A stretch of DNA of 22,195 nt, taken from positions 1 through 22,195 of the forward strand of contig JAGUYV010000052.1 in NCBI GenBank assembly GCA_020061125.1. The letters are read 5' to 3'. The translations under genes and the position numbers were made by a program. Position 1 is the first letter of the stretch. Each line of letters starts with the position of its first letter. Shown piece after piece: positions 1 through 22,195 of the stretch. Origin of the DNA: a bacterium (lineage in GTDB: Bacteria; UBP15; UBA6099; DSWB01). The notes beneath the pieces were generated by a model. The model saw nothing but the letters and a program-made list of their open reading frames with translations, had not been told where the DNA came from and ran no database searches.

Positions 1-767
1 CCATGATTGATGTGTGCCGCGACAACAATGTCAAGCTGCACCTCGGATTCCACATGCGCTGCGACGCGGGCATCCAGCGCGTGCGCGACATGGTGCGCGG
101 CGAAAAATTCGGCGCGTGCTTCCAGGCCGCCTTCGAGTGGTTCGGGCTGTCCACCATGGGAAATGTGCCCGCCATAAAGAACGCGTGGAAACTCCTGGGC
201 GCCATGGGCGTGTCCGACAAGGGCTTCAGCCCGGACTGGCGTTTCGAGGACCCGCGCATCCCCGGCGGCGTCATGGAGGTCTTCTGCCACATCATTGATC
301 TGGCCCTGTGGATCTTCGGCGAACCCGAGGATGTGGTGGCCAAAACGCAAACCATCTCCCCGGACGCCAGGAAGCCCGAGCACGGCGTGCTCCTGCTCAC
401 CTTCCCCGGCGGCGTCACCGCGTATCTGAACATGAGCTCAAAAGCGCTGTCCCTGCGGGAGAGCAACCGCGCGCGATTCTATTGCGAAAACGGGAACATC
501 ATTTACGAAACCGACTCGAACCGGCAATCGTTTCTGCCCGGAAAGATCACACTGGAAACGGACCGCGGCCTTGCGGGCCGGCGCACGGGATTGCCCGCGC
601 TGCCGCCCCTCGAAAAGGGTCCGGCCATGTTCCCCCACTACCGCAAGATCCACAACTTCATCCGCGATGTGCAGGGCCGCCTCGACCCCGCGGAAGCGGA
701 CATCGTGGCCCGCGGCGAAGACGGCCTGGCCGTGGACAGGATAGTTCAGAAGCTCATGGGCGGATAG
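1..767 (+). CDS. Gfo/Idh/MocA-family oxidoreductase, C-terminal part (5' truncated)
   Basis: The reading frame is open from the window edge and ends with TAG at 765-767, giving about 254 residues. The visible part matches the C-terminal alpha/beta substrate domain of NAD(P)-dependent Gfo/Idh/MocA dehydrogenases. It opens with the helix-strand element 'CRDNNVKLHLGFHMR', which in this family follows the Rossmann domain, and contains 'GGVMEVFCHIIDLALWIFG', corresponding to the family's conserved G-x(n)-H-x(2)-D-x(3)-W/F-x(2)-G helix (His and Asp of the active site). It ends with the usual 'HYRKIHNFI' and 'GLAVDRIVQKL' helices. The Rossmann GxGxxG and the catalytic EKP motif lie outside the window, so the ATG at position 3 is not taken as the start. 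The substrate, probably a sugar or polyol, cannot be told. The gene converges on the lipoprotein gene with a gap of only 34 bp. Confidence 0.85.
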   Translation, partial: MIDVCRDNNVKLHLGFHMRCDAGIQRVRDMVRGEKFGACFQAAFEWFGLSTMGNVPAIKNAWKLLGAMGVSDKGFSPDWRFEDPRIPGGVMEVFCHIIDLALWIFGEPEDVVAKTQTISPDARKPEHGVLLLTFPGGVTAYLNMSSKALSLRESNRARFYCENGNIIYETDSNRQSFLPGKITLETDRGLAGRRTGLPALPPLEKGPAMFPHYRKIHNFIRDVQGRLDPAEADIVARGEDGLAVDRIVQKLMGG

Positions 768-783
768 GCCCAACCCGAATCTC

Positions 784-797
784 GTATGTTCACATAC
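784..797. terminator. Short hairpin in the 34-bp gap between convergent genes (weak terminator candidate)
   Basis: A perfect 6-bp inverted repeat, GTATGT / ACATAC with a 2-nt loop, sits in the gap between the two convergent genes. No T-run follows on either strand, so it would be a poor intrinsic terminator. It may be chance. Confidence 0.25.
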
Positions 798-801
798 CCC
801 G

Positions 802-3800
802 TCAATCTATGGTCGTAAAGTTGCCTGTGGCCGGTATGTTTGTGACCGGATCCGCGGCGTTGCCCGCGGGATCGCGCAGACCCGCGGGCACGAAGCGCGC
901 GGTGATGTTGTATGTGGTGGACGGGTACAGGCGCTTGAGTCCCATGCCCGTGAGAATGGCGTTGCTGCGCAGGGTGAAGGCCAGGGTGTCGCTGGTAATG
1001 AACATGTTCGTCCAGAAGAAGGTGCCGTAGGCCAGGGCGTTGGAGCTGTCTATGGTCATGCTCATGCCCGTGGAAGCGTTCTGGATGGTGATGCTGAAGC
1101 CCGACGCTAAAAGCGTGGCCGGGTCGTTCATGTTCACGGTGGTGTCCATGGTTTCATTGAAAATCACATTGAATGTGGGCTGGTTGTAGGGCACGAACAC
1201 ATTGCCGCTCGCCGGGAAAAACCCTATGACATTGGGAGAATCCTCATCAAGGATGTTGGAGCAGGCCGCGACGCAAGTGGACGGGTTGGTGCAGGTGTCA
1301 ACGGTGGCCGGATTTCCGTCGTTGCAGGCCGCATCCGAGCTGCACGCCGGGGTGCAGGGCGTGCTGGAGCAGGCCGCGGCGCATGTGCCGGGGCTGCCGC
1401 AGGCGTCGCTTGTGAGCGAGTCGCCGTCGTCGCAGTCGGCGTTCGAGAAACACGCCGGGAAACAGGCGTTGTTGGAGCACGCGGCGTCGCATGTGCCGGG
1501 ATTCACGCAGACATCAGTGGTCAGTGGATTGTCGTCATTGCAATTTGCCGAAGAGTTACAAACCGGCGTGCAGGGGGCGTACGAACAGGATGCGCTGCAT
1601 GTGCCGGGATTCACACAGGTGTCGGCGGTCTGGGAATTGCCGTCGCTGCACTGGGCGTTCGAGCTGCACGCCACGCTGCATGTATTGTGCGTGCAGGCCG
1701 CGGAGCAGGTTCCCTGATTCACGCATGCGTCCGTGGTCATGGGATTGTCGTCGTCGCACTGGGCGTCCGAAGAACAGGCGACCGTGCATGCGGGATTCGA
1801 GCAGTAGGCGTCGCAGGAAGTGGAGTTGTTGCAGATGTCCTGGGTCGCCGCATTGCCGTCGCTGCACTGGGAATTCTGGGTGCACTCCGGGGTGCATGAA
1901 GTGAAACCGCACGATGCGGCGCATGTGCTGGGATTCGAGCATGTGGCGCGCGTGTAGGGGCTGGAATCTTCGGGGCACCCGGAGTCGGCGGTGCAGGCCG
2001 GCGTACAGGGGCTGTAGCTGCATGCGGCGCTGCATGAACCCGGAGAAACGCAACTGTTGGTTGTGAGCGGATTGCCGTCGTCGCAGTCCGTGTTCGAGGA
2101 ACAGGCCACGGTGCAGGTGTGGTAACAGGAAGCGTAATACATTCCCGGATAATTGCAGTAATCCCTGTTCTTGGCATTGCCATCGTCGCAGTCCGCGTTG
2201 GAATTGCATTCGGGGATAATGGCGTGTGTGCAGTACGCGCCGCACTGGCCGCCGTAGTTGCACGAATCCTCGGTGTTGCTTCGGCCGTCGTCGCAATCCG
2301 CATTGGTATTGCATCCGACTTTGCAGGAATAGCAATAAGCGGAGCATGTGCCCGCGCCGCGGCATGTATCCACGGTTGTGGCGTCGTTGTCGTTGCAGCT
2401 TGCGTCCGAAGTGCATTTGGGCGTGCACGAAGCGCAACTCGAAAATTGCATTCCTCCCCAATAACATGTGTTGATCGTGGCGGTATTTCCGTCTTCGCAG
2501 TCGCTGTTTTCGAAACATGCGATTTTGGTGTTGTAGCATTTGGAATACCTGCTGCCGGGGCTGCTGCAATAATCAAGAGTCATGCGATCCCCGTCGTCGC
2601 AGCCCGCGTCGCTTGTGCATGCGATGGTGTAATTGTCGCAGCGCGAGTAATAGCACTGGCCCGGATTCACACAGTCGTCAATGGTGGCGGAATTGTTGTC
2701 ATTGCAGTCGCTCGCGCTGTTGCACGCCACATTACAGGATCTGCAAGCCGAATAGCATGTATTCGGGTTGTAGCAGGTGTTTTTCGTCATTGGATTTCCG
2801 TCGTCGCACGCGGCGTCATCGCCACACGCGGACTGGCAATTGCGGCAGTAGGCGCTGGCCATGCCGGGATTGAAACAAGTGTCCAGCGTTCCGCTGTTTC
2901 CGTCGTCGCACCCCGCGTCATTGCCGCATTTCGGCACAACATTCATGCATCTTGAATAATACATGCCGGGATTTTGGCAGTAATCTATGGTGTCACTCCT
3001 CTGGTCCACGCATTCTTCGTCGGCTTTACAGGGCGGTGAGTAATAATAGCAGTAGGCAGCGCATGTTCCTGACGATTGACAATAATCTGTTGTGCGAGCG
3101 TTTCCGTCATCGCATTCGGAATCGGAACCGCATGCAACCGGGCAATCGGTATGTACGCATCGTGAACATGACGCGCCGAATGCATAGCACCTGTCATAAG
3201 TCTCCGCATTGCCGTCACTGCAATCCGCATTACTTGTGCATTCATTCACGCATTGCGTGTTTATTTCGAGATACGATTCCCCTGCGCCGGTTCTGCTGTC
3301 GGCGCATGCATGAACCACAACAACCTCGGATGTATACCCGTCCTTGGAGGCCCAGATTTCCAGATCCACATCCGCAGGAACGCGGATAAGCTGAAGGGAG
3401 CCGTCATAGGATTTTATTTGCTCGTGAATGTAATATCCATTGGCGTAGGCGTAGAATTGCGCTCCTGGAATTCGGTTCCCCTGGGAATCAACGATGTAAA
3501 CGAAGTAAGCCTGGGAACAGGCTTTACCGAAATAATCAAGATTGAACCATGTCAGGTGAGTTATCGAGAATTGCACGAACATGCCATGCTCGTCCATCAT
3601 GACCGAGGCGCGCATGACGGATCCGTCGCCGTTGTATTCCACGACCCATTCCCCGGTGGTTTCGTTGAACACGAAAATGGGGATTGTGTCGCCCACCCTG
3701 GTGTCCAGCCCGGTTTCCGGGTTCTGGATTCCCTGGGGAACTCGCATGGTGATCTGCACGGACATGCCGTCGGGGAACTGTGTGACGGGATTTCCGTTTT

Positions 3801-4653
3801 CGTCCGTGAGATTGATGCTGGCGAACCCGGCGCTGATGAGCAGGCTTTCCTGTTGCCCGTTTCCCACATCGCTGTTTGTGGTGAAATCGCCCGGGAAAAA
3901 CGAAAGCGCATCCGAATCCGTGGGATCGCCGTAGGATATGGATCCGCGCACGGCGCCGGAGAAGCCCAAAACCTCGGCCGCGCGGTCGCCCGTGCCCGAG
4001 GGGTTACCGATGGTCAGGGTAACATCCGCGGGGTCGGACCCGCTCACGGGCGTGGAGAATTCCACGGCCAGGTCGTCCGGCGAAACCACGATTTCGGTCA
4101 CGGCCATCTGTAGGCCGGTGTCCGGGTCCGTGATGACCAGGGGCTGGGCCTGCGAAGTTGTTCCGTCCGAGCGGTAGATTTTGCCCTGCGTGGCCTGGTC
4201 CGCGGTCTGGGGCAGGCGCTTCATGAGCAGGCTCTGCTCGAACACGCCGTTTTCGTGCCCGTTGGGCATCAGGGTCACGGTTTTAAACAGCGGCTCGTAT
4301 GTGTTTTTCAACACCTTGATTTTCACGGCCGTGCCGGTGTCCGCAACCGAGCCAATGCTGGAAGAAAACCGCCCCTCGCCGTCGGTGGTCATGGCCGCGG
4401 TTCCGTTCACGGTCACGCTTGCGTTGGGCACGGGATTGCCGTCCGTGTCCGTGACCGTGGCGGCCAGAACGAATGCGCCTTCTCTGGCGGCATCGGAATT
4501 GTCCGTGGGCGTGGTTGTGGCCGGGGTCCCGGTTTTCCAGGTGGCCCCGCCGCCGCCTCCGCCGCCGCACCCGCAGATTACGCCCATCCACAGGCACAGG
4601 CCAAATATTGCCATTGACAAACGAACATCACACATTGCATGTGGCGATCGCAT
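802..4653 (-). CDS. Large cysteine-rich repeat lipoprotein, 1283 aa
   Basis: Predicted exported, lipid-anchored surface protein of unknown function. I choose the ATG at 4653: a GGGGGGA Shine-Dalgarno lies 6 nt upstream and a hydrophobic segment ends in the lipobox-like I-C-G-C (Cys29). The in-frame ATG at 4722 lacks an SD and lies inside a promoter. After Cys29 comes a run of seven glycines, then a carboxypeptidase-regulatory-like or Ig-like domain (about residues 55-145, 'VTDTDGNPVPNASVTVNG'). Next is a long beta-rich region (about 150-465) with a second 'D-S-Q-G-N-R-I-P-G-A' segment, then 19 tandem Cys-rich repeats (468-1131), and finally a Big_5/SbsA-type Ig-like domain (about 1140-1283, 'PASGNVFVPYNQPTFNVIFNE', shortened here to its hallmark start). 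The repeats resemble the C-x(5)-C-x-DGN type seen in large secreted proteins of deltaproteobacteria and Myxococcota. Adhesion or cell-surface structure is inference. Confidence 0.85.
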   Translation of the reverse strand: MRSPHAMCDVRLSMAIFGLCLWMGVICGCGGGGGGGATWKTGTPATTTPTDNSDAAREGAFVLAATVTDTDGNPVPNASVTVNGTAAMTTDGEGRFSSSIGSVADTGTAVKIKVLKNTYEPLFKTVTLMPNGHENGVFEQSLLMKRLPQTADQATQGKIYRSDGTTSQAQPLVITDPDTGLQMAVTEIVVSPDDLAVEFSTPVSGSDPADVTLTIGNPSGTGDRAAEVLGFSGAVRGSISYGDPTDSDALSFFPGDFTTNSDVGNGQQESLLISAGFASINLTDENGNPVTQFPDGMSVQITMRVPQGIQNPETGLDTRVGDTIPIFVFNETTGEWVVEYNGDGSVMRASVMMDEHGMFVQFSITHLTWFNLDYFGKACSQAYFVYIVDSQGNRIPGAQFYAYANGYYIHEQIKSYDGSLQLIRVPADVDLEIWASKDGYTSEVVVVHACADSRTGAGESYLEINTQCVNECTSNADCSDGNAETYDRCYAFGASCSRCVHTDCPVACGSDSECDDGNARTTDYCQSSGTCAAYCYYYSPPCKADEECVDQRSDTIDYCQNPGMYYSRCMNVVPKCGNDAGCDDGNSGTLDTCFNPGMASAYCRNCQSACGDDAACDDGNPMTKNTCYNPNTCYSACRSCNVACNSASDCNDNNSATIDDCVNPGQCYYSRCDNYTIACTSDAGCDDGDRMTLDYCSSPGSRYSKCYNTKIACFENSDCEDGNTATINTCYWGGMQFSSCASCTPKCTSDASCNDNDATTVDTCRGAGTCSAYCYSCKVGCNTNADCDDGRSNTEDSCNYGGQCGAYCTHAIIPECNSNADCDDGNAKNRDYCNYPGMYYASCYHTCTVACSSNTDCDDGNPLTTNSCVSPGSCSAACSYSPCTPACTADSGCPEDSSPYTRATCSNPSTCAASCGFTSCTPECTQNSQCSDGNAATQDICNNSTSCDAYCSNPACTVACSSDAQCDDDNPMTTDACVNQGTCSAACTHNTCSVACSSNAQCSDGNSQTADTCVNPGTCSASCSYAPCTPVCNSSANCNDDNPLTTDVCVNPGTCDAACSNNACFPACFSNADCDDGDSLTSDACGSPGTCAAACSSTPCTPACSSDAACNDGNPATVDTCTNPSTCVAACSNILDEDSPNVIGFFPASGNVFVPYNQPTFNVIFNETMDTTVNMNDPATLLASGFSITIQNASTGMSMTIDSSNALAYGTFFWTNMFITSDTLAFTLRSNAILTGMGLKRLYPSTTYNITARFVPAGLRDPAGNAADPVTNIPATGNFTTID
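1261..3252 (-). repeat. Nineteen tandem about 35-residue Cys-rich repeats within the lipoprotein
   Basis: The unit reads roughly C-x-S-[ND]-A-x-C-[DNS]-D-G-N-x-x-T-x-D-x-C-x-N-P-G-T-C-x-A-x-C, typically six cysteines per unit. I count 19 units between residues 468 and 1131. The last eight or so (nearest the C-terminus) are the most alike, with 'CTPAC' joints. The earlier ones are more diverged and some have Tyr-Tyr or Met-Tyr in place of the fifth Cys, which suggests expansion from the 3' part of the array. The DNA repeats are not identical, so this is an old array, not a recent slippage product. Confidence 0.85.
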
Positions 4654-4699
4654 GAGTGTCCCCCCGGCTGATAAAATTCCGTTGCTTGCCGTTGTCTGA

Positions 4700-4727
4700 A
4701 TTCTACCCTGCGGCGATTTCATGTAAA
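4700..4727 (-). promoter_or_regulatory. Sigma70-type promoter of the lipoprotein gene
   Basis: On the minus strand, TTTACA (4727-4722) and TAGAAT (4705-4700) are separated by 16 bp. Transcription would start near 4693. This is downstream of the in-frame ATG at 4722 and 40 nt upstream of the ATG at 4653, which supports the shorter protein. Confidence 0.55.
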
Positions 4728-4816
4728 CAAGCGGTGAAAAATAAATCTTTGTATGTCAAACGCAGGCCGCAATCCATTTATTACGCATGGCGCAATATTT
4801 TGAGCAACGGCCGCGC

Positions 4817-4846: not shown

Positions 4847-4883
4847 GAAACCGGGATTCCATGCTTGCCAGAGGAGCGGACGG

Positions 4884-5534: not shown

Positions 5535-7736
5535 GTGACGGTCAAATCCGAAACCATGGAACAGAAAATGCCCGCCATGCACAGCAATGTGCAGGAAATG
5601 GTGGACGCCGTGATCGAGGACATCGGCACGGACATCCGTATGGGGCTGCCCATCGGCGTTGGCAAGCCAACGATTCTGGCCAATGAAATCTACCGCCGGG
5701 CCAAAGAGAATCCCAACATCAAGCTCAAGATTTTCAGCGGCCTGTCCCTGTGCGTGCCCCAGGGCAAGTCCGACCTCGAAAAACGGTTCCTCGGTCCCTT
5801 GGTCAAACGCCTGTTCCCGGACTACCCGGACCCGCAATTCACTATTGACTCGTTCAAGGGCAAGCTGCCGGACAATGTGGAGATCTCGGATTTCTACATC
5901 ACGCCCGGCGCGTATGTGGGCAACCGGTTCGTGCAGCAGGGCTACATTTCGTCGAACTACTCGCATGTGCCGCGCGATGTGATTGACGCGGGCGTGAATG
6001 TGGCTGCGGGCCTGGTGTGCCGCAAGACCGTGGACGGCCGCGAGATGTACAGCTTGAGCAGCAACGCGGACGCGCCCCTCGACACCGTGTGGAAACTCCA
6101 GGAAATGCGACGCACCATCGGAAAAAAAGTCGCCATCATCGGACAGGTCAACCAGAACCTGCCCTTCATGTACGGCACGGCCGCGGCCTACCCCGAAACC
6201 TGGGACTACATCCTCGACAACCCGGATTATTACCACCAGCTTTTCGGCCCGCCCCGCGAGGCCATCAACACCACGGACTACATGATCGGCATCAACGCCA
6301 GCACGCTCATCCGCGACGGCGGCTCCATCCAGATCGGCATCGGCTCCCTGGGCGACGCCATCACCATCGGCCTGGTCATGCGCCACAAGAACAATCCCCT
6401 GTACCGCGAGTTCGTGGAAAAGGCCGGAATTTACGAACGCTACGGCGCTTCCATTGACAAAATCGGCGGCCTGGACACCTTCGAAAAAGGACTCTACGGC
6501 GTCACCGAACTCATGGTGGACGGGTTCATTCAGCTCATTAAAAACGACATCATCAAGCGCAAGGTCTACGACAACCGCTACCTGCAAAAACTCATAAATG
6601 AAGGCCACATCACCGAGCAAGTGACCCCGCGCACCCTGGAACTGCTCCTCGATGAAGGCGCGATCAGCCCGCAGCTCAACGAAGAGGATGTGATCTTCCT
6701 CAAGGACTTCGGCGTGCTGCGCGAAGACATCCGCCTGGAGAACAGGCAGTTGCTCAACGGCGACGGAACCGGGTTCCTCGCGGACCTGTCCGACGGCGCG
6801 GCCATGGACGGCATCTGCAAGAAATTCCTCGGGGACAGGCTCAAGAAGGGCGTGCTCGTGCACGCCAGCTTCTTCGTCGGCCCCCCCACCTTTTACCAGG
6901 CTCTGCGGGACATGTCCGAGGAAGAACGCTGGCGCATCCAGATGCGCGAGATCAGCTTCTGCAACACCCTGCGCGGCGACGAGCAGCTCAAGCTGGCCCA
7001 GCGCCAGAGCGCCCGGTTCGTGAATGTCGCCCTCATGCAGACCCTGCTCGGCAACACGGTCAGCGACGGACTCGAAAACGGACAGGTCATCAGCGGCGTG
7101 GGCGGCCAGTTCGATTTCGTGACCATGGCCCACGGCCTGCCCGGCGGCCGCAGCATCATCCTTCTGCGCAGCACAAAACAGCAGAAGGATTCCCTTACAA
7201 GCAACATCCGCTGGAACTACGGCCACTGCACCGTGCCGCGCCACATGCGCGACTTCGTGGTCACAGAGTACGGCATCGCCGACCTGCGCGGCATGCCCGA
7301 CCGCAAGGTCATCGCCAACCTCATCAACATCGCCGATTCCCGCTTCCAGGAAGAGCTTCTTGCCAAGGCCAAGGAAGCCCAGAAGATTCCGGACAGCTAC
7401 AAAATTCCGCAATCCTACCGCCAGAACTACCCCGAGCGGCTCGAAAAGGAACTCAAGCCCTTCCGCGAAAAAGGACACTTCAACCCCTTCCCGTTCGGCT
7501 CCCAGTTCACCGACGAGGAGATCACCATCGGCAAGGCCCTGCAATCCCTCAAGGCCACCATGGAGACCAAGAAATTCACCATGCTTCCCATGGACAAGAT
7601 GAAAAAGATCCTGTCCCCGCCGCGCGAGGCTCTGACGCTGCTCCAGCGCCTGGACCTCGACAAGCCCAAAAACGGCAAGGAGAAAATCACGCAGAAACTC
7701 GTGCTCTACGCCCTGGCGCAGACCGGCGCGATTTGA
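5535..7736 (+). CDS. Long-form acetyl-CoA hydrolase / acyl-CoA transferase, 733 aa
   Basis: A member of the acetyl-CoA hydrolase/transferase family, whose members move CoA between acetyl-CoA and a carboxylate or release acetate. Recognisable parts are an N-terminal 'GLPIGVGKPTILANEI', 'IQIGIGSLGDAITIGL', 'YGVTELMVDG' with Glu325 at the position expected for the family's catalytic glutamate, 'GVGGQFDFV' (about residue 521), and the hallmark 'VTEYGIADLRG' (Glu578). At 733 residues it is much longer than the roughly 430-510 of most members: about 170 extra residues lie between the catalytic Glu and the GVGGQFDF motif, and there is a tail of about 140 residues. The start is GTG, with a purine-rich AGGGTGGA upstream. 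Cytoplasmic. With the pyruvate:ferredoxin oxidoreductase nearby it could complete acetate formation (inference). The exact acceptor is unknown. Confidence 0.85.
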   Translation: MTVKSETMEQKMPAMHSNVQEMVDAVIEDIGTDIRMGLPIGVGKPTILANEIYRRAKENPNIKLKIFSGLSLCVPQGKSDLEKRFLGPLVKRLFPDYPDPQFTIDSFKGKLPDNVEISDFYITPGAYVGNRFVQQGYISSNYSHVPRDVIDAGVNVAAGLVCRKTVDGREMYSLSSNADAPLDTVWKLQEMRRTIGKKVAIIGQVNQNLPFMYGTAAAYPETWDYILDNPDYYHQLFGPPREAINTTDYMIGINASTLIRDGGSIQIGIGSLGDAITIGLVMRHKNNPLYREFVEKAGIYERYGASIDKIGGLDTFEKGLYGVTELMVDGFIQLIKNDIIKRKVYDNRYLQKLINEGHITEQVTPRTLELLLDEGAISPQLNEEDVIFLKDFGVLREDIRLENRQLLNGDGTGFLADLSDGAAMDGICKKFLGDRLKKGVLVHASFFVGPPTFYQALRDMSEEERWRIQMREISFCNTLRGDEQLKLAQRQSARFVNVALMQTLLGNTVSDGLENGQVISGVGGQFDFVTMAHGLPGGRSIILLRSTKQQKDSLTSNIRWNYGHCTVPRHMRDFVVTEYGIADLRGMPDRKVIANLINIADSRFQEELLAKAKEAQKIPDSYKIPQSYRQNYPERLEKELKPFREKGHFNPFPFGSQFTDEEITIGKALQSLKATMETKKFTMLPMDKMKKILSPPREALTLLQRLDLDKPKNGKEKITQKLVLYALAQTGAI

Positions 7737-12273: not shown

Positions 12274-12357
12274 CGTTTCAATGCTGTTTCTGCCGCATGA
12301 GACGCGGAAATCATGCGATGGAAGCGAAAAACAACTGCAAATGAGAGGAAAAATCAC

Positions 12358-13506
12358 ATGGCGATCAAAAAAGCGCGAATCGGAATCCTGACCGGCGGGG
12401 GCGACTGCGCGGGGCTGAACCCGGCCATTAAATGGGTCACCAAGGGCCTTCTGGACAAGGACATGAGCCGCCTGTTCCGGCGCAAATTCGAAGTTGTGGG
12501 CATCCGCAACGGCTGGGCCGGGCTGGTAAACGGCAAGCCCATGCAGCGCGGGCTGAACAAGGATCACTTCTGGATTCTGGACGAAGCCACGGTGCGCACC
12601 TGGGACCGGCTCGGCGGCACCAACCTGGGATCGTCGCGCACCAACCCGCTCAAGGACGAGGCGCTGCTCAAGAAAGTCATTGACAATGTTGACAAGAACA
12701 AATTCGAGGCCATCGTGGCCATCGGCGGCGAGGACACGCAGAGCGTGGCCGAGGGCCTGCGCCAGAGCGGCGTGAATGTGGTGGGCATTCCCAAAACCAT
12801 AGACAAGGATCTCCGGGGCACGGATTACACGCTCGGGTTCTCGACCGCGGTCGAGGTGATCCGGCAGGAAATCGGCCGTCTGCGCACCACGGCCGGGTCG
12901 CACCAGCGCCTGTTCGTGGTGGAGACCATGGGGCGCCACGCCGGGCACCTGGCCCTGCAGGGCGGCATCGCGGGCGGCGCGTGCATGATTCTGATCCCCG
13001 AAGTGGATTTCGAGATGGACAGAGTCATCGAAACCCTCAAGAAACGCAAGTCCAGCGGCGCGCGCTACGACATCCTGGTGGTAGCCGAGGGCGCCAAGCC
13101 CGTGAGCCGCACCTACGAGGTCGTGCAGAGCCGCGAGAAGGACGACTTCGGACATGTGATGCTGGGCGGCATCGGCGACCAGCTCAAAGACGCAATCAAA
13201 CAGTCGGGGATCAGCGAAGTGCGCAGCGTGGTGTTGAGCCACCTGCAGCGAGGCGGCGAGCCGAACGGCTACGATGTGCGCATGGGCCGCGCGTTCGGCC
13301 TGGCCGCATCGGAACTCATCCACGCCGGGTCCTACGGCAACATGGTGGCGCTGCGCGACAACCGCATCGTGTCCATCCCCTTCACCGAAGCCATCCAGCG
13401 CAACGAAAAGGGCGAGGTCATTCTCAACCTGGTGAATGTGGAAATGGAATACGACGAAAAACGCTACATCGGCAAACGCCGCACCCTCAACACCAAGTTC
13501 ATCTGA
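12358..13506 (+). CDS. pfp: 6-phosphofructokinase, PPi-type signature (mixed-substrate group)
   Basis: Phosphorylates fructose 6-phosphate to the 1,6-bisphosphate in glycolysis; cytoplasmic, 382 residues. Motifs: N-terminal 'ILTGGGDCAGLNPAI', the donor-site 'GGEDT' with Asp126, and 'PKTIDKD' with Lys146 and the catalytic Asp149 and Asp151. ATP-dependent enzymes have Gly at the positions of Asp126 and Lys146; the Asp plus Lys pair is the established mark of PPi-dependent enzymes, and GGED places it in the mixed-substrate group that includes actinobacterial and Thermoproteus enzymes. 'METMGRHAGH' (here 'VETMGRHAGHLAL') and 'LSHLQRGGEPNGYD' are also typical. Lys150 replaces the Asn usual in TIDND. 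The ATG at 12358 is chosen over 12313 because of an AGAGGAA SD. PPi use is inferred, not shown. Confidence 0.9.
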   Translation: MAIKKARIGILTGGGDCAGLNPAIKWVTKGLLDKDMSRLFRRKFEVVGIRNGWAGLVNGKPMQRGLNKDHFWILDEATVRTWDRLGGTNLGSSRTNPLKDEALLKKVIDNVDKNKFEAIVAIGGEDTQSVAEGLRQSGVNVVGIPKTIDKDLRGTDYTLGFSTAVEVIRQEIGRLRTTAGSHQRLFVVETMGRHAGHLALQGGIAGGACMILIPEVDFEMDRVIETLKKRKSSGARYDILVVAEGAKPVSRTYEVVQSREKDDFGHVMLGGIGDQLKDAIKQSGISEVRSVVLSHLQRGGEPNGYDVRMGRAFGLAASELIHAGSYGNMVALRDNRIVSIPFTEAIQRNEKGEVILNLVNVEMEYDEKRYIGKRRTLNTKFI

Positions 13507-13602: not shown

Positions 13603-15885
13603 TTACAGGACCGGGCTTTCGTGCATGGCCTTGAGGCGCTGCCAGCGGCGCTCGACCTCGGCCTCGTGCCGGGCCAGCAGTTCCGCGTAGGAGTCCTTGG
13701 TGAAGTGCCGGGTCTTGCCCATGAGCTTGAGCCACTCGATGAGCGGGATGCGCTTGTTCTTCTTTTCGGGATCGTAGGTGATGGTCGTGACGCCCTTTTC
13801 GATCTCGTAGAGCGGGAAGAAGCAGGTGTCAATGGCGGCCTGCATGATTTGTCGCGCGTCCTGTTCGCGGCATTTCCAGTTCAGGGGGCAGAAGGAGAAA
13901 ATCTTGCCGTACACGAACCCATATTCGCGGGCGTAGTATTGCGCCTTGGCGGCTTTCTTGGTGAGGTCCACATGCTGGGCCTCGCATCCGGTGAACACAT
14001 AGGGGATGTGGCATGCGGCCATGATCTGCGCGGTGTCCTTGTTGTGGGAACTTTTGCCGGCCTGCGCCTTGCCCACATGGCTGGTGCTGGTGGCGTGTCC
14101 CAGAGGAGTGCTGAACGACAACTGGTTTCCGGTGTTCATGTAGCCTTCGTTGTCGTATTCGAGCTGGATCATGTTGTGACCGCGCAGGGCCGCGCCGATG
14201 GAAGGCCCCATGCCGATGTCGTTGCCGCCGTCGCCGGTCACATGGATGAAGGTGATGGGCCGGTCCGGGAGTTCGCCGCGGCGGATGCGTTCCTTGTATG
14301 CGTCCACGATGCCGCTCATGGTGGCGGCGCCGTTCTGGAACAGGTTGTGGACATATGTGACGCGGTGCGCGCTGAAGGGGTAGCCGGAGCCGATGATCAT
14401 GCCGCAGCCCGTGTGGAACAGGACCACGACCGGGCCTTCGATGCCGCGCATGAAATTGTTCAGGGATGGAATGATGCCGCAGCCCGGGCAAGCGCCATGG
14501 CCCGGGGCCAGGCGTTTGGGCATCTGCGTGAGCTTGCGCGCATTCGCCCCGGACACCTTGAGCTTGCCCGTGCCCTCGTCCACTTCCACGGACACGATGC
14601 CGGGGGTCTGGTCCGCGGCGGTAAGAGGTTTTTCCACGCGCTCGGGCTTGTAGGTCTCATCGCCCTCGAACGCGCCCACATATTCGTAGGGAACCTTGAT
14701 GCCGGATTTGCCGTACTCGATGGCTTCCTCGATGATTTCCACGACTTCTTCGAGATAGATTTCCAGGCCGCCGAGACCGTAGATGCGGCTGTAGACCCGG
14801 GTTTTGTTTTCGGGATCGTCCTTGAGCGCGGCCTTGATTTCCAGGCTCATGCTGCCGCCGCCCGTGCCGTAGGTGTCCTGCCGGTCGCCCACGCACAGAA
14901 TTTTGACATTTTTCAAAACGGCCTGAAGTTCCTCTTTGGGGAACGGGCGCAGCACGGCCAGGTTCACGGCGCCCACTTTGTGGCCGCGGTCGCGCATGAT
15001 GTCCACGGCCTCGCACGCGGTGTCGAAGCTGCTGTTGAGGAAGAACACGGCTACCTCGGCGTCTTCCATGCGGTAGGTGTGCAGGAAGTCGTATTTGCGG
15101 CCCGAGATTTTCGCGTATTCCTCGAAGACCTGTTTGATGACGGCTTTTGCGTTGACCATGGCCATGGCCTGCTGGCGGCGGTTGTTGATGAGATCGTCGT
15201 TCATGTACGGGCCGATGGTCACGGGGTTGTCGGGATCCACGGAAATGTAGCCGGGCTTGTTTTCGCCGATGAAGTCCTGAACCACCTGGCGGTCGCTGAA
15301 GATGTAGGCGCGGCGTTTCTGGTGGCTGGTGACGAAGCCGTCGTAAGACACGATGGCGGGCAGGCGCACCTCGGGGTGCTCGGCCACTTTGAGGGCGATG
15401 ATATCCATGTCGTAGACCATCTGCGGGTCTTTGGCCATGAAGGTGAGCCAGCCTGTGGTGAGGGTGTAGACCAGATCGGAGTGGTCGCCGCGGATGTTGA
15501 GCGGGCCGCTGACCGCGCGGTTGATGAGGTTCAGAAGCATGGGGAAACGGGAGCCGCTCTGCACGGGGAGCTGTTCGAGCGCGTAGAGCAGGCCGTTGGC
15601 GCTGGTGGCGTTGAACACGCGCGCGCCGGTGGTGGTAGCGCCGAAGCAGATGCCCGCGGCTCCGTGTTCGCCGTCGCCGGGGATCATGTGCACATCGTGC
15701 ACGCCCGCGGCTTTCATGGCGTCAAGTTCCTCGGGCACGGCCGTGGACGGCGTGATAGGAAAGTAGCCCATGACATGGAAATTTATCTGGCTGGCGGCGT
15801 GCGCGGCCAGTTCGTTGCCGTTGAGCACGACTTTGGTCTGTTCTGGCATTCCATTGGCTGATGTGGCGGCTGCCTGTGGGGTCAT
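13603..15885 (-). CDS. porAB: Pyruvate:ferredoxin oxidoreductase, fused alpha-beta subunits
   Basis: A 760-residue fusion of PorA and PorB, which oxidise pyruvate with CoA to acetyl-CoA and CO2, using thiamine diphosphate and ferredoxin. Residues about 18-430 are the alpha part: 'GNELAAHAASQINFHVMGYF' and 'PITPST' start the PYR domain, with 'GDGEHGAAG' and 'RGDHSD'. After a linker rich in charged residues, the beta part (about 455-760) has the TPP-binding 'GDGGNDIGMG' and the proximal [4Fe-4S] ligands: 'CPGC' (Cys466, Cys469), Cys494 in 'HTGCG' at the family spacing C-x2-C-x24-C, and a distal Cys in 'FSFCPLNW'. ATG start with AGGAGG 9 nt upstream. It lies 73 bp after the gamma-delta gene in one operon. 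Other 2-oxoacids are possible substrates. Confidence 0.9.
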   Translation of the reverse strand: MTPQAAATSANGMPEQTKVVLNGNELAAHAASQINFHVMGYFPITPSTAVPEELDAMKAAGVHDVHMIPGDGEHGAAGICFGATTTGARVFNATSANGLLYALEQLPVQSGSRFPMLLNLINRAVSGPLNIRGDHSDLVYTLTTGWLTFMAKDPQMVYDMDIIALKVAEHPEVRLPAIVSYDGFVTSHQKRRAYIFSDRQVVQDFIGENKPGYISVDPDNPVTIGPYMNDDLINNRRQQAMAMVNAKAVIKQVFEEYAKISGRKYDFLHTYRMEDAEVAVFFLNSSFDTACEAVDIMRDRGHKVGAVNLAVLRPFPKEELQAVLKNVKILCVGDRQDTYGTGGGSMSLEIKAALKDDPENKTRVYSRIYGLGGLEIYLEEVVEIIEEAIEYGKSGIKVPYEYVGAFEGDETYKPERVEKPLTAADQTPGIVSVEVDEGTGKLKVSGANARKLTQMPKRLAPGHGACPGCGIIPSLNNFMRGIEGPVVVLFHTGCGMIIGSGYPFSAHRVTYVHNLFQNGAATMSGIVDAYKERIRRGELPDRPITFIHVTGDGGNDIGMGPSIGAALRGHNMIQLEYDNEGYMNTGNQLSFSTPLGHATSTSHVGKAQAGKSSHNKDTAQIMAACHIPYVFTGCEAQHVDLTKKAAKAQYYAREYGFVYGKIFSFCPLNWKCREQDARQIMQAAIDTCFFPLYEIEKGVTTITYDPEKKNKRIPLIEWLKLMGKTRHFTKDSYAELLARHEAEVERRWQRLKAMHESPVL

Positions 15886-15958
15886 TGAAAGAATCCTCCT
15901 CGATGGCCGGGCCGTTTCGCGCCCGGACTCTTTTCGAAATGTGTCCGGCTGTGCGGCG

Positions 15959-16927
15959 TCACTCGGTTTCGCGCTCTGCGGTCAGCGCCTGCTTGGGGCA
16001 CACATCCACACAGCGCATGCAGCCCTTGCAATACTGAAGGTTCACGCCGGTCATGAAGCGCTTGTCCTCGCCCTTGTCGTCTTTGCGGGTCACAAAAATC
16101 ATGGCCTGGTCCGGGCACACGCTGTCGCACTCGCCGCAGTTGATGCACAGATCCTCGTGCCATACGGGATAGAATCCCGAGCGGGACATGCTCATGTCAT
16201 TGAGCGCGGTGTTGCCGGGATTGGGGATCACGCCTCCGATGGGCGCGTTCTTCCAGCCCAGTTTTGGGCGGAACGGCGTGAACGGCTGCACCGGATACTT
16301 GCCGTCGTCCGGCACTTCGAGGATGTCCACTTCTTCATGGCCGCGCTCGAAGGCGTTGAGGTTGGGTTCGAGCAGATGGGGATACTTGTGCCCGAAAATG
16401 TCTTTGATGGAAGCGTGCACCGCGTCTTTGGTGAGGAAATCCACGGCGCGGCAGATGGTGCCCATGATGGTGGTGTTGATACGCACCTTTTCTTCCACGG
16501 AGATCTTCATGGCGTCAACGCAGTAGAGAGTCACGCCGCCGGGCACCTGGAGCAGATCGCGCACTTCGTCGCATTTTTTCGGGGTGTTGACGATGACGGC
16601 GGCGCCGGGTTTCACGCCCTGCATGACCGCCACCTTGCCCGCCAGGTTGGTGTGGAACACCACCAGAAGGTGCGGCTCCACAACCGGGCTGTTTACGCGA
16701 ATGTCCCTGTCCGGTTCCGAAAACTTGATGAACGACTTGACCGGCGTGCCCTTTTTCTCGGACCCGTAGCTTGCGAAATTCACGCCGTTGAGGCCCATGT
16801 GCAGGATACCGGCGTCGGCCAGGATCTTGCCCGCCAGGTTCGCGCCCTGGCCGCCGACGCTCTCCATGCGGATCTCGTAATACCCGTATTCGTTCTTCTG
16901 TTTGAGGATTTCGGTCTGTTGAGCCAA
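15959..16927 (-). CDS. porGD: Pyruvate:ferredoxin oxidoreductase, fused gamma-delta subunits
   Basis: A 322-residue fusion. Residues about 15-190 are the gamma subunit ('MESVGGQGANLAGKIL', the GGQG motif that helps bind CoA or the partner subunit in this family). The C-terminal part (about 225-322) is the delta, ferredoxin-like subunit with two [4Fe-4S] motifs, C261-x2-C264-x2-C267-x3-C271-P and C300-x2-C303-x2-C306-x3-C310-P, which pass electrons to soluble ferredoxin. The 'KNAPIGGVIPNPGNT' linker stretch before the clusters is typical of PorD. Start codon TTG, chosen because GGGGGAG lies 6 nt upstream and the reading continues with 'AQQTEILKQK'. It is the promoter-proximal gene of the operon, followed by the alpha-beta gene. 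Confidence 0.9.
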   Translation of the reverse strand: MAQQTEILKQKNEYGYYEIRMESVGGQGANLAGKILADAGILHMGLNGVNFASYGSEKKGTPVKSFIKFSEPDRDIRVNSPVVEPHLLVVFHTNLAGKVAVMQGVKPGAAVIVNTPKKCDEVRDLLQVPGGVTLYCVDAMKISVEEKVRINTTIMGTICRAVDFLTKDAVHASIKDIFGHKYPHLLEPNLNAFERGHEEVDILEVPDDGKYPVQPFTPFRPKLGWKNAPIGGVIPNPGNTALNDMSMSRSGFYPVWHEDLCINCGECDSVCPDQAMIFVTRKDDKGEDKRFMTGVNLQYCKGCMRCVDVCPKQALTAERETE

Positions 16928-17150: not shown

Positions 17151-18254
17151 TCACCTGATTTTCACAAGATTGTAGCGGCGGGAACCGCAGCCCATGGCCT
17201 CGGCCGCGGCCACATGCGGCTGCCAGTCCACATTGTGCAGGGCCACGAACTTGTCCGCGGCGTCCGGAGTCTTGAGCTTGTGAGGGTAAGGAGTCCAGGG
17301 GGACTGGTTGATGAGGTCCGCGGACGCCTGGTCCACGGCCACGGGGTCGCGCGAGGCCAGCACGCCCGCGTCCGCAACGAACGGCGCATCGGTCCAGTCC
17401 ACACAATCGCAATCCGGGGTGATGTTGGTGGCGAAGTTCAGAAACGCGCATTTGTTTTCCTTGCCCGCCAGCGCGCCGCGCGCGTATTCAGCCATCTTTT
17501 CCTGAAGAAGCGAGGCTTCGCTTTCCCACTCCACCTCGATGGCGCCGGGACACACCACCACGCACTCGGCGCAGCCGATGCACCTTGTTTTATCAATCTG
17601 CGCCTTTTTGTCCTTGCGGCGCGAAATGGCCGCGGCCGGGCACACTTTCATGCACGAACCGCACGCAATGCACTTTTCCGCGTCCACGCTGGGCTTGACA
17701 TCCGAGTGCATGTTCTGTTTGCCTGCGGGCGAGGCGCAGCCCATGGATATGTTCTTGAGCGCGCCGCCCATGCCCGTGGCCAGGTGGCCTTTGGCGTGCG
17801 ATATCACGATCATGGCTTTGGCGTAGTGGATGCCGCCCGCGATCTTCACGCTTTTGAAATGCTTGCCCTTGACCGGCACTTCCACGAAATCGTGCCCATA
17901 CAGCCCATCGGCCACGATCACGGGCGCGTGAACCACCGAGGGAGCGAATCCGTTTTCGATGGCGGTCATGATGTTGTCCGGCGCGATGCGGCGCGTGCCC
18001 CGGTACAGTGTGTTGGTGTCCGTGATAAAGGGCTTACCCCCGAGGTCCCGCACGGCGTCAACCACAAGGCGCGCCACCTGCGGGGATATGTAACCCGTGT
18101 TGCCCTTTTCTCCCCAGTGCACCTTGATGGCGACCGTGTCTCCGGCGTTCACCATGTCCCGCAGATTCAGCTTTTTGAGGAGCTTCGCGGTTTTGTTGAA
18201 AAGATTCTTTCCGTAAGTTTCCCTGGCGTCGGCGAAAAACACATCAGACGGCAT
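17151..18254 (-). CDS. DUF362 protein with two [4Fe-4S] cluster motifs
   Basis: A 367-residue cytoplasmic iron-sulfur protein of the DUF362 family; its function is not known. The N-terminal DUF362 part has 'DTVAIKVHWGEKGNTGYISP', 'FITDTNTLYRGTR' and 'VISHAKGHLATGMGGALKNI', the family's conserved core with candidate metal or substrate ligands (His, Lys). A ferredoxin insert follows: C195-x2-C198-x2-C201-x3-C205-P and C225-x2-C228-x2-C231-x3-C235-P. The C-terminal part returns to the DUF362 fold ('FVADAGVLASRDPVAVDQASADL'-type motif). Start: ATG with a GGGAG 11 nt upstream. It has its own extended -10 promoter, so it is probably not read only from the phosphatase gene. An electron-transfer role is inferred from the clusters. 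Confidence 0.88.
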   Translation of the reverse strand: MPSDVFFADARETYGKNLFNKTAKLLKKLNLRDMVNAGDTVAIKVHWGEKGNTGYISPQVARLVVDAVRDLGGKPFITDTNTLYRGTRRIAPDNIMTAIENGFAPSVVHAPVIVADGLYGHDFVEVPVKGKHFKSVKIAGGIHYAKAMIVISHAKGHLATGMGGALKNISMGCASPAGKQNMHSDVKPSVDAEKCIACGSCMKVCPAAAISRRKDKKAQIDKTRCIGCAECVVVCPGAIEVEWESEASLLQEKMAEYARGALAGKENKCAFLNFATNITPDCDCVDWTDAPFVADAGVLASRDPVAVDQASADLINQSPWTPYPHKLKTPDAADKFVALHNVDWQPHVAAAEAMGCGSRRYNLVKIR

Positions 18255-18289
18255 GGCGGGGGTTCTCCCTTCAGTAGATGCTAATGATC

Positions 18290-18298
18290 ATTATATCA
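18290..18298 (-). promoter_or_regulatory. Extended -10 promoter of the DUF362 gene
   Basis: TGATATAAT (18298-18290, minus strand) matches the extended -10 TGnTATAAT exactly, 35 nt before the start codon. No -35 match is seen, as is usual for this promoter type. Confidence 0.55.
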
Positions 18299-18322
18299 GA
18301 GGCTCGGTTGCGGCCCGCACTG

Positions 18323-19024
18323 TCATGAGAGGATTTTCTTGTTCACGGGGTCGTAATACATGCGTTTCGCGCGTTCCTGCACGATGCGATCCTCTTCGAG
18401 CACCCAGGCGGTGAGCGAGTTTCCGTACACGCATCCGGTGTCGAGTCCCAGGGCCACGAGTCTGCCGTTGCGCTCGCTGCGCACCAGACCGCCGCGCGCG
18501 TCGTGGCCGAAAACCACAAGTTTCGGCCCCTCGTACAGCTCGTGCCAGTGCGGCTGGTCCGGATTGTCGTAATCCGGGAATGTGCGAATGGTGAGGGCCG
18601 CGCGCGCGTCCGTGCCTATTGAGCCAAGAAGCGGATGCACGCCCGCATGCACCAGAATCCAGCGCAGGCCGATGATGGCGATGGGGCAGCTTGCGATGAA
18701 CGATGCGAATTCCGCGGCGCGCCCGCCCATGCGTTCGCAGGCCTTTATCTGCGATTTGCTGAAATCCTCGTCTGCGTATTTCCCCGTGGCGCGGTGCAGC
18801 AGGCAGCGGTGGATTTTCCAGTCGTGGTTGCCGAGCACGCTCTTTGCGCGCGCGCGCACCATGAGGTCCAGGGTGCGGCCGGGATCCGGACCGCGCGCGA
18901 AATTGTCGCCGGTCAGATACAGACGGTCCAGAACCGGATCGTAATCCAGTTTCTTGAGAATGTTTTCGAATTCCAGGGCGCAGCCGTGAATGTCGCCCAC
19001 GAATATGGTGCGGGATGGCCGCAT
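18323..19024 (-). CDS. ApaH/PrpE-like metallophosphatase
   Basis: A 233-residue calcineurin-like phosphoesterase of the bis(5'-nucleosyl)-tetraphosphatase group. All dinuclear metal motifs are present in order: 'GDIHGC' (Asp11, His13), 'GDNFARGPDP' (Asp40; the family usually has GDxxxRGPDS), 'GNHD' (Asn66, His67), 'HAGVHP' (His126), 'FGHDA' (His174), then 'LDTGCVYGN' (195-203), which is diagnostic for this group against general phosphodiesterases. Relatives hydrolyse diadenosine polyphosphates or phosphoprotein substrates; which applies here is not known. The start is the ATG at 19024: the family begins directly before the GDIHG motif, and an AAGGA SD lies 8 nt upstream within the end of the preceding gene. 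Only 4 bp separate it from that gene's stop, so translation is probably coupled. Confidence 0.88.
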   Translation of the reverse strand: MRPSRTIFVGDIHGCALEFENILKKLDYDPVLDRLYLTGDNFARGPDPGRTLDLMVRARAKSVLGNHDWKIHRCLLHRATGKYADEDFSKSQIKACERMGGRAAEFASFIASCPIAIIGLRWILVHAGVHPLLGSIGTDARAALTIRTFPDYDNPDQPHWHELYEGPKLVVFGHDARGGLVRSERNGRLVALGLDTGCVYGNSLTAWVLEEDRIVQERAKRMYYDPVNKKILS

Positions 19025-19028
19025 GCGT

Positions 19029-21788
19029 TCAGTCCTTGATCTTCTTGAGAATGTCCATTTCCCCGGCGCGCACGCGCACCACGGAATCCGCGGGGATGCT
19101 CTGGCCGATCCAGACCACAAGCGTGTCGCTGCCGTAATCGCTCTCGAGAGCCGTGGCGTACTGTATGGGCCGGTTTCCGTTCACGGTGACTTCAGCATCG
19201 GTGTAGGGAAAGTTTTCCAGGAGCAGAACGGGATTGAACAGCATATCCCCGGCCGCGCCCTCGAACTTGAGTTTCACGGTGCGCGCGCCCTGGCACTGCA
19301 CGCGGTAACCGCGCTGGCGGGGTTCGAATTCCACGCTGTCCGCGCCCTCCCAGGCTTTCACGGGCGGGGGATCAATCCATGAGCGCGCCGCGGCCAGGAC
19401 TTCGGCGTCCGGCGCGTCCGTGTTGCCGATGAGCCACGCCCACTCAACGAGTTCGTGGGTCTTGTCCAGCATGCGCCGCCGCAGGGGTTCGGTTTCCACA
19501 GCCGTAAGGGATGCGTGGCCCGGCCGCTCGCGCCACCCCGGCGGCGCCTGCATGCATGTGGGCAGTCCCCGCGTGACCGGGTAATGCACGCCCCAGTAAC
19601 TCGGGCTGACATACCGGCCGTCCTCTTTCCATCCGTCGTACTGAACGATGAAATGCTCGAAGCTGCGGGACACCATGACCGGGGTGTTCGCGTCCTTTTT
19701 GCTCCAGTTGATGCGGAACACGGCCGGGGTTTTCGCGTCCCATTTTCCCGCGGGCTGCGGGTAGGTGATGGACTCCTGCCTTGCGCCGTCCGGGGACAGC
19801 ACGCGCACCGCGCCGGGCGGCAGCACATCGAACGGGTTGATGCCCGAGGGAATAAATACGATGAATTCGTTGGCCTCGTGCCAGGTCATGGGCAGGAAAT
19901 GGCCCACGGCGTGGCGCACGCCGTACCCATCGGGATAAAAGGTGTAGGTTTCCTCGGCCCATTCGTTGTCCGCGATTGTGTATTCGAGGTCAATGAGCGC
20001 GTAACGCCAGTCCACCACGGCGCGCGCGGGCGTGCTGGACACGATGAACGGACGCGAGAACCGCGCTTCCTTGTCCTGCAGCGGCTCAATGCAGTCCACC
20101 AGCCCGCCGCGCTCCCACGCGGCTTCGAGCCATTCATAGGTCATGCCGATATTGGCGCGCGACGCCCAGAACGGCACATTGCTGGACCCGCGCCACCAGA
20201 CGAAGCGGTTGCCGTTGGGAAACGACACCACGATGTCGCGGTGCGGCCCGCGCGTCCACAGGCTGTCCCAGTCCGCCGATGACCAGGTCCCGGTTTTCCG
20301 GTCATGGAGCGGCACCGGCCCTTCGTAGGAAAGCTGCGTGTAGAACGCGCCGAAACCGCGATTTGCGGGCCTTGCGTCCTCGGCGATCAGCCAGCGTTTT
20401 TCTTCAAGCAGAATCCGGCCGTCTCGTTCGAGGGTGAGGATGAGCCGGTACTTGCCCGGCTTGACATCCGCGCCCCGCGCGGACAGCGCGCCGTCGAACG
20501 CTTCGCCCGCCGCGACATTGTGATCACCCTTGAGCTCCAGCACGGTCTCGCCCTGTTTGTTCTGCACGCGGGCGCGCGACACAATTTTTTGCTTCCCGGT
20601 TCCTGGGATGAAGCACCAGAAGCGGATGGAGAGCGATTGTTCGGGGATGAGCAGCACGCGGTCGTGCGGCACAAGAGCGCGGCCAAGGTCCACGGGATTC
20701 ACGGCCGGCTCCGCGGCTACTTCGAAACCTCCGAAAAAATCCGGATCCGAAAGCTGCTTTTTGTCCAATACCTCGCGCTTGCCGCCGGCCGTTATCGAGA
20801 GCGCTATTTCCTGGTCCTGGAAGAACAACGGAATTTCGACATTCTCGCGCATATACAGGCGTTCGCCGCCGGGCAGGGTCACGCGCGCCAGAGCGCGGCC
20901 CTTGTGCAGAATTTCCAGCGCGTATTCGTCCGATGCCCGCGCATTGACATTGAGCACGGAAATCTGGACCTCGCGCGCCATGCCCTTGCCGCGCCGGTGC
21001 GCCAGGGGCCAGAAATCGCTGTCCCGGAACAGATAAATGGACCCGCGCCTTTCGAGGCTTTCGAGCCGCGGCAGAACCCTCGCGGCGACGCGAATCAGGT
21101 CCTGACCCATGTCCCCGGAAAAGTTCGTGATGTTGTTGTCCCACAGGCGGATGAATCCGGGCGCGCCCTTTTTGAATTCTCTGGTCCAGGCCGATGCGTT
21201 GCCGTCCGCGTCCAGGGCCAGCACATTCGTGACCGAGGCGCGGGGCAGCGCGCGCACACTGGTCCAACCACTTTTCAGGCCCCATGTTTTGCCTGTTTCC
21301 GCGGGGGCGGCGCTGCTGCGGCCCTGCCAGTTGCCCACGGTGTCGAAACCCAGCACGCCCCGTCCTCCGAGGTAATCCCACTTTTCCTTGTCCCATTTGC
21401 CCTTGCCCACAAAATAAAAAGGGACATCTCCGGGCCGAATCACGGATCCGCCCGCGTCCAGATATTTACGGAACAGGGCGTCCGCGCCCGGCGCGGTTCC
21501 CACGAGCGTGTCCGGAACCACATCCGACGCCATGATGAGCAGTTTCCCGGCCGCGCCGCGCGCCGTGGCCTGCGCCATCCAGTCCCGCACGGCCTGCGCG
21601 TCCATTTGCGCGAACCCGAGCGCCACGGCGAAATCCCGCAGTTCGGCGCTCGCGCCGCGCGTGATCCACGACACCGGATAGTTCTCGTCATAGTAAACAA
21701 CGGCGTCCGGGAAATCCGCGGCGCGCGCCGCGAACGACAGGGCGAACGCGCACGCCGCGCACAGAGCCGTGGCAATGATTTTCTTCAT
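19029..21788 (-). CDS. Large secreted protein of unknown function, 919 aa
   Basis: Not recognised with confidence. The N-terminus is a classical Sec signal peptide (MKK, hydrophobic core, 'AARA' cleavage after Ala23), so the protein is exported. Residues about 25-235 have the alternating pattern of a ThuA/GATase-like alpha/beta domain ('LLIMASDVVPDTL', 'YLDAGGSVIRPGDVPF'). The middle (about 240-470) is beta-rich. A segment near residue 530 reads 'FVWWRGSSNVPFW', a W-R-G-x-x-x-x-P-x-W motif I associate with uncharacterised secreted beta-sandwich proteins. The C-terminal region has many Trp and Tyr, as in carbohydrate-binding or carbohydrate-active proteins. ATG at 21788 is chosen for its GGAGG SD at 8 nt and because it starts the signal peptide. 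It is the first gene of a unit with the metallophosphatase. Confidence 0.75.
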   Translation of the reverse strand: MKKIIATALCAACAFALSFAARAADFPDAVVYYDENYPVSWITRGASAELRDFAVALGFAQMDAQAVRDWMAQATARGAAGKLLIMASDVVPDTLVGTAPGADALFRKYLDAGGSVIRPGDVPFYFVGKGKWDKEKWDYLGGRGVLGFDTVGNWQGRSSAAPAETGKTWGLKSGWTSVRALPRASVTNVLALDADGNASAWTREFKKGAPGFIRLWDNNITNFSGDMGQDLIRVAARVLPRLESLERRGSIYLFRDSDFWPLAHRRGKGMAREVQISVLNVNARASDEYALEILHKGRALARVTLPGGERLYMRENVEIPLFFQDQEIALSITAGGKREVLDKKQLSDPDFFGGFEVAAEPAVNPVDLGRALVPHDRVLLIPEQSLSIRFWCFIPGTGKQKIVSRARVQNKQGETVLELKGDHNVAAGEAFDGALSARGADVKPGKYRLILTLERDGRILLEEKRWLIAEDARPANRGFGAFYTQLSYEGPVPLHDRKTGTWSSADWDSLWTRGPHRDIVVSFPNGNRFVWWRGSSNVPFWASRANIGMTYEWLEAAWERGGLVDCIEPLQDKEARFSRPFIVSSTPARAVVDWRYALIDLEYTIADNEWAEETYTFYPDGYGVRHAVGHFLPMTWHEANEFIVFIPSGINPFDVLPPGAVRVLSPDGARQESITYPQPAGKWDAKTPAVFRINWSKKDANTPVMVSRSFEHFIVQYDGWKEDGRYVSPSYWGVHYPVTRGLPTCMQAPPGWRERPGHASLTAVETEPLRRRMLDKTHELVEWAWLIGNTDAPDAEVLAAARSWIDPPPVKAWEGADSVEFEPRQRGYRVQCQGARTVKLKFEGAAGDMLFNPVLLLENFPYTDAEVTVNGNRPIQYATALESDYGSDTLVVWIGQSIPADSVVRVRAGEMDILKKIKD

Positions 21789-21823
21789 GGCAACACCCTC
21801 CGCCATCGCTTTCTGGTTCACAG

Positions 21824-21832
21824 ATTATAGCA
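21824..21832 (-). promoter_or_regulatory. Extended -10 promoter of the secreted-protein/phosphatase unit
   Basis: TGCTATAAT (21832-21824, minus strand) is an exact extended -10, TGnTATAAT, 35 nt before the start codon; no -35 match is seen. The spacing is the same as at the DUF362 gene. Confidence 0.6.
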
Positions 21833-21913
21833 TATCGCGCCGCGCGTCCGGCGCCGCAAATTGCGGGATCGTCTGGCCCGCGCTATGATGATCCCGGCAT
21901 GAGGATTCAACCA

Positions 21914-22195
21914 ATGCGCATCATCCCCGCCCTGCTCGCGTTCCTGTTTCTCATGGCCGCACCGTGCGCGCGCGCTATGGCGCAATCCGTGGGCTCCTCG
22001 ACCCCGGAGCAGATCACGGCGCAGGCCGAGGCGCTGGTGGAATCGGGCGCGGCGATTCTGAACGCGGCCGCAACGGACCGCGAGTTCGAGATGGCCGTGA
22101 AGCAGTGGGAACAGGCGCTCGAACTGTACCGCAAGGCCGGAAACCGTGAGGAAGAGGCCAGCCTTTGGGAGTTACTGGCCGAAGCGCACGCGCGG
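21914..22195 (+). CDS. Exported helical (TPR-like) protein, N-terminal part (3' truncated)
   Basis: The frame runs off the window after 94 codons. It begins with a signal peptide ('RIIPALLAFLFLMAAPCARAMA', shortened: hydrophobic core then A-x-A) followed by amphipathic helices. 'AVKQWEQALELYRKAGNREEEA' has the pattern of a tetratricopeptide repeat (W at helix A, Y-K-A-G-N at the turn), so more TPR units probably follow; such arrays often precede a CHAT protease or another effector domain, which cannot be seen here. The ATG at 21914 has GAGGA 8 nt upstream; an in-frame ATG at 21899 has no SD. Divergent from the secreted-protein gene with a 125-bp shared upstream region. Confidence 0.7.
   Translation, partial: MRIIPALLAFLFLMAAPCARAMAQSVGSSTPEQITAQAEALVESGAAILNAAATDREFEMAVKQWEQALELYRKAGNREEEASLWELLAEAHAR

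Follow-up and report, generated by a model that had tools for sequence, protein, structure and literature searches.

The tetranucleotide ACGT and at least four other restriction-site words are almost entirely missing from the genome of an uncultured bacterium

The tetranucleotide ACGT, which is its own reverse complement, does not occur on either strand of the 22,195 bases of contig JAGUYV010000052.1 (assembly GCA_020061125.1; GTDB lineage UBP15; UBA6099; DSWB01), the whole of which is referred to here as the window. The window (contig C467; GC content 60.2%) belongs to a metagenome-assembled genome of 4.12 Mb in 513 contigs (G000, the source genome), which is 79% complete, with about 21% of the genome lying outside the bin. 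Very likely, selection against restriction sites has cleared this chromosome of ACGT, through an orthodox type II restriction-modification (R-M) system that cuts ACGT and that is present in the lineage or was until recently.

Expectations were obtained from two null models: a second-order Markov model, and a shuffle of synonymous codons within each gene (200 shuffles), which preserves every protein and the codon usage of each gene. The first predicts 61.1 copies of ACGT in the window, and the second predicts 63.0 in its coding part (standard deviation 4.8; the lowest of the 200 shuffles gave 50). Thus, the initial annotation was correct that 22 kb contain no ACGT, although the roughly 80 copies that it expected, an estimate from base composition only, exceed the expectation of either model. 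The avoidance that it described in Asp, Asn, His and Tyr codons followed by Val is also borne out: the first codon is NAT in all 62 such pairs of the window, whereas NAC exceeds NAT by about 3:1 before other residues. The other four-base palindromes that it listed as present (GATC, TCGA, CATG, GTAC and AGCT) occur at 0.7-1.3 of expectation in the window; CTAG, a palindrome left out of that list, is absent, with about 10 copies expected.

The loss extends throughout the source genome. Motif tables were made from 460 kb of the 4.12 Mb (including 374 kb of coding DNA; two of the sampled contigs, L038 and L042, consist entirely of N) and were supplemented by pattern counts over the whole genome, in which ACGTSSSS per strand served as a proxy and the reversed pattern as its control. 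ACGTSSSS is present 40 times per strand versus 2,516 for the control, a ratio below 0.02, and sampled coding DNA contains 9 of the 922 copies of ACGT expected under the protein-preserving null (0.010). The claim that non-coding DNA behaves in the same way finds little support in the window itself, where only about 1.6 kb is not called as coding; it holds in the sampled contigs, in which uncalled DNA has 15 copies versus 148 expected, 6 of them within a 16S rRNA gene. Six relatives from the same order (G001-G006) contain 797 to 1,121 copies of ACGTSSSS, compared with 432 to 1,371 of the control. Since ACGT is depleted throughout the source genome and ordinary in these relatives, the loss arose within the source lineage. 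However, strong depletion is not unique to it, because ACGT-poor genomes are also found among unrelated sampled genomes, such as G019 (8 copies of ACGTSSSS versus 422).

How the sites were lost can be read from the codons that replaced them. If the C of ACGT were methylated to 5-methylcytosine (m5C) and then deaminated, mutation alone would convert the sites to ATGT or ACAT, as reported for the main route of ACGT loss in Helicobacter pylori with M.Hpy99XI (PMC10423294). The NAT-GTN codons of the Asp, Asn, His and Tyr-Val pairs fit this explanation, but they are the sole synonymous escape under any model. Threonine codons are more telling. Before T, 42-44% of the Ala, Pro and Ser codons of the source genome end in G, and the Thr codon ACG is never used. 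An additive model predicts that ACA would make up 60% of Thr codons in this position after deamination and 38% after proportional refilling. The observed shares are 30% ACA, 53% ACC and 17% ACT, which resemble the A:C:T proportions of Ala, Pro and Ser, and the share of lost ACG that has gone to ACA beyond the proportional amount is -0.35 (bootstrap 95% interval -0.60 to -0.13). Arg CGT after A is as absent as ACGT in its other contexts (0.2%, versus 5-12% otherwise), and this equally complete loss at xxA-CGT counts against deamination because deamination there would alter the protein. ATGT and ACAT stand at only 1.08 of expectation in the window, and no ACA excess is seen in G065, an unrelated genome that also lacks ACGT. 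The excess of ATGT and ACAT that the initial annotation had offered as the mark of a deamination origin is therefore missing, and loss by this route alone is most improbable.

Besides ACGT, at least four further specificities are avoided: CTSAG, RTCGAY, CAGCTG and GRGCYC. In coding DNA of the source genome, under the protein-preserving null, CTSAG is found once where 379 are expected, RTCGAY 4 times where 388 are expected, CAGCTG twice where 155 are expected, and GRGCYC 28 times where 535 are expected. AAGCTT, CTAG and CATATG are also avoided, less strongly. The initial annotation caught only one of the five motifs, although CTSAG, RTCGAY and CAGCTG are missing from its window as well:

1..22195, no strand: window without CTCAG or CTGAG (CTSAG), RTCGAY, CAGCTG, CTAG or AAGCTT; 19.8, 23.7, 10.0, 3.0 and 2.0 expected in coding DNA, respectively, the last two values being too small for significance in the window alone.
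434..439, no strand: residual GRGCYC site, one of three in the window (the others are at 20532 and 21991), with 22.4 expected in the coding part.

Each lost word corresponds exactly to a restriction specificity, and this applies also to the degenerate RTCGAY, GRGCYC and CTSAG. In a second-order comparison, the degenerate sets are lost whole (GTCGAC, ATCGAC and ATCGAT; GAGCTC, GAGCCC and GGGCCC) and neighboring 6-mers are kept. Three of these words have been described elsewhere: RTCGAY was filtered as a restriction enzyme site of B. breve UCC2003 (PMC12592239), CTSAG has 263 entries in REBASE (PMC10745947), and GRGCYC is a 5-methylcytosine R-M motif (PMC11649196). A neutral mutational or codon-pair bias, unrelated to restriction, could in principle remove short words, and CTAG and several TA-containing words are indeed low in many genomes, including the source genome and G001. 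However, such a bias would have to pick out exact restriction specificities, degenerate sets included, spare the neighboring 6-mers, and leave ACGT intact in the relatives; it is a very improbable cause of the ACGT loss.

The relatives have repertoires of their own. RGATCY, ATGCAT, CATATG and CTAG are avoided in G001, and CCWGG, GRGCYC, CYCGRG and CAGCTG in G002. The complete 4.12 Mb of the source genome contain 53 copies of CAGCTG and 11 of GTCGAC, compared with 266 and 2,325 in G001. All genomes of the order that were examined are strongly depleted in CAGCTG (17 to 266 copies), and avoidance of this word is therefore probably older than the loss of ACGT. GTCGAC is scarce in G005 as well (56 copies).

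Most of the few copies of ACGT that the sample retains are found in 16S rRNA, at a tRNA-Ser, or on contigs with a Mu-like prophage. All six copies on contig C30 are inside the 16S rRNA gene (L027, 6724-8298), which also holds clustered CTSAG, GRGCYC and CTAG sites. One of the three copies on contig C3 is in the tRNA-Ser, with another nearby; CTSAG likewise survives in a tRNA-Arg. Contigs C8 (L047) and C259 (L025) bear Mu-like phage genes, and their coding DNA contains 16 of 28 expected copies of ACGT (0.57), 0 of 10.9 of CTSAG, 1 of 16.2 of GRGCYC, and 1 of 6.2 of RTCGAY. Among the genes of C259 is one for a methyltransferase that has an SPPY motif; if this enzyme marks ACGT, it would explain why the prophage has retained the word. 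Its relatives in phages are only distant, and none was found in viral contigs.

These observations can be accommodated as follows. The lineage would carry, or would lately have carried, an orthodox type II R-M system that cuts ACGT, the endonuclease being the presumed agent of loss. With incomplete methylation, each dispensable ACGT would pose a small risk of self-cutting, so that synonymous changes away from ACGT would be favored and would build up over time. ACGT would then persist only at functionally fixed positions, such as those in rRNA and tRNA, and in newly arrived DNA, and an ACGT methyltransferase would protect the sites that remain. With its at least five avoided specificities, the genome is thus a record of a restriction repertoire.

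The assembly was searched for methyltransferases with PF00145, PF01555, PF02384, PF07669 and PF02086, which gave the following:

C128: C5 DNA methyltransferase, the only C5 enzyme.
C172: beta-class DNA methyltransferase, conserved in the order.
C38 and C78: D12 enzymes.
C259: the phage methyltransferase.
C411: divergent match, weak and C-terminal, of a kind found across the order.

The beta-class enzyme on C172 was rejected as the ACGT methyltransferase since homologues 57-59% identical to it are present in G002-G006, where ACGT is normal. The Dam-like D12 enzyme on C38 was discounted as well; GATC is normal in the genome. C128 (L024:417-2871) carries an operon, also seen on plasmids and in many bacteria, that encodes the C5 methyltransferase, a DUF4928 protein (called REase_II by PADLOC) and a Vsr repair endonuclease; 80 genome loci of this type were retrieved.

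Assignment of the C128 operon to ACGT has two points in its favor: no other complete type II operon was found, and in G065 (an unrelated, uncultured delta proteobacterium; L113, L247), whose methyltransferase is 62% identical, coding DNA contains 4 copies of ACGT where 150 are expected. (G065 is also short of RTCGAY, with 3 of 121.) However, among 13 other carriers of close homologues for which the methyltransferase was retrieved, ACGT ratios range from 0.15 to 1.98 and are mostly ordinary, even though these carriers are alike in the target-recognition region of the enzyme. Taken together, 50 carrier genomes, methyltransferase similarity, the target-recognition region and pooled motif counts reveal no consistent loss of ACGT. 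The DUF4928 protein has no sequence relative in PDB. Nonetheless, when a 68% identical homologue was modelled with AlphaFold2 (mean predicted local distance difference test score, pLDDT, 86), the model could be aligned from end to end with EcoT38I (7edb), with which it shares no detectable sequence similarity (Z 12.6; root-mean-square deviation 5.3; 272 aligned), the next distinct structures being at Z near 7. This suggests, at the level of modelled structure, that the DUF4928 family has a restriction endonuclease fold, possibly with specificity for GRGCYC, the sequence recognized by EcoT38I. Because of this resemblance, because GRGCYC is avoided in the source genome, and because most carriers have normal ACGT, the C128 operon is more likely a predicted GRGCYC system than an ACGT system; the latter is quite unlikely. 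In pooled carriers with distant methyltransferases, the depletion of GRGCYC is only mild (0.57).

Several results weigh against selection by an ACGT-cutting R-M system. No methyltransferase or endonuclease specific for ACGT was found with the five Pfam families in the 79%-complete assembly, which has few DNA methyltransferases and, set against five or more avoided specificities, a single full type II operon. In addition, the 0.57 ratio on the prophage contigs implies that restriction at ACGT is not acting strongly on them. Consequently, the proposal of the initial annotation that an R-M system selected against ACGT is supported as to the kind of process (the loss is genome-wide, lineage-specific and protein-neutral, has no bias toward ATGT or ACAT, and is accompanied by the loss of at least four other specificities), the ACGT-cutting enzyme itself being putative.

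The same results bear on whether the system is still there. The ACGT loss may be the trace of an R-M system that has vanished, a variant of the explanation above rather than an exclusive alternative. Such traces are common according to earlier work (PMC4687349), more motifs are avoided than restriction operons were detected in the assembly, and prophage DNA retains ACGT. On the other hand, the coding ratio of 0.010 leaves little room for mutational regrowth of sites since a loss, and about 21% of the genome is not in the bin; a vanished system is possible but the less probable case. Because at least five specificities are avoided although the assembly encodes almost no cognate systems, it can also be proposed that cutting is due not to ordinary type II systems resident in the genome but to poorly binned mobile elements, to neighbors met during DNA exchange, or to unrecognized enzyme families, and that the Mu-like prophage escapes at ACGT alone by means of its own methyltransferase marking ACGT. 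This proposal is unlikely. Selection through an orthodox type II ACGT system, living or recent, remains the preferred explanation.

Restriction-site avoidance is a known phenomenon, which here is unusually complete and occurs in an uncultured lineage. Hosts avoid the sites of orthodox type II systems (PMC4687349, 2015), and the features described in that work are shared: short palindromic or degenerate sites are under-represented genome-wide, avoided sites outnumber identified systems, and close genomes are partly alike. The threshold used there was 0.78, whereas four motifs here stand at 0.003 to 0.013 under the protein-preserving null, which differs from that paper's; in further contrast, the present lineage is uncultured and has few identified methyltransferases. 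ACGT is also strongly depleted in H. pylori (between about 50 and 400 motifs, depending on the population), where most losses lead to ATGT/ACAT and are interpreted as m5C deamination (PMC10423294), a bias that the codon test does not detect here.

The points of interest are the completeness of the loss, its clean separation from deamination, and a prophage that retains only ACGT. The avoided words can be read as a record of how restriction has acted on a lineage not yet grown, and they predict which sites a vector for this lineage should lack or carry in methylated form, as well as the motifs to be seen in a nanopore methylome. Near-total loss without a deamination signature offers a clean example in which selection and mutation can be told apart as causes of the loss of a methylated motif, unlike ACGT in H. 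pylori, and retention of ACGT alone by the prophage leads to a specific, testable guess about the phage methyltransferase.

Contig C1 (L243) of the unrelated genome G019 has 0 of 90 expected copies of ACGT in 20 kb, and several further palindromes are low; G019 has no match to the methyltransferases of C128 or C172. No R-M genes were recognized in the window, whose genes include:

3..767, + strand: GFO/IDH/MocA oxidoreductase, truncated by the start of the window.
802..4722, - strand: 1306-aa protein, perhaps located at the surface, that contains many Cys-rich repeats built around a CDDGNP-type motif; its matches are carboxypeptidase-regulatory-like and Ig-like.
5535..7736, + strand: acetyl-CoA hydrolase/transferase family protein.
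8861..11692, - strand: pyruvate formate-lyase-like glycyl radical enzyme.
12313..13506, + strand: phosphofructokinase.
13603..16927, - strand: 2-oxoacid:ferredoxin oxidoreductase genes.
19029..21821, - strand: 930-aa protein that has no match in Pfam and probably carries a signal peptide.

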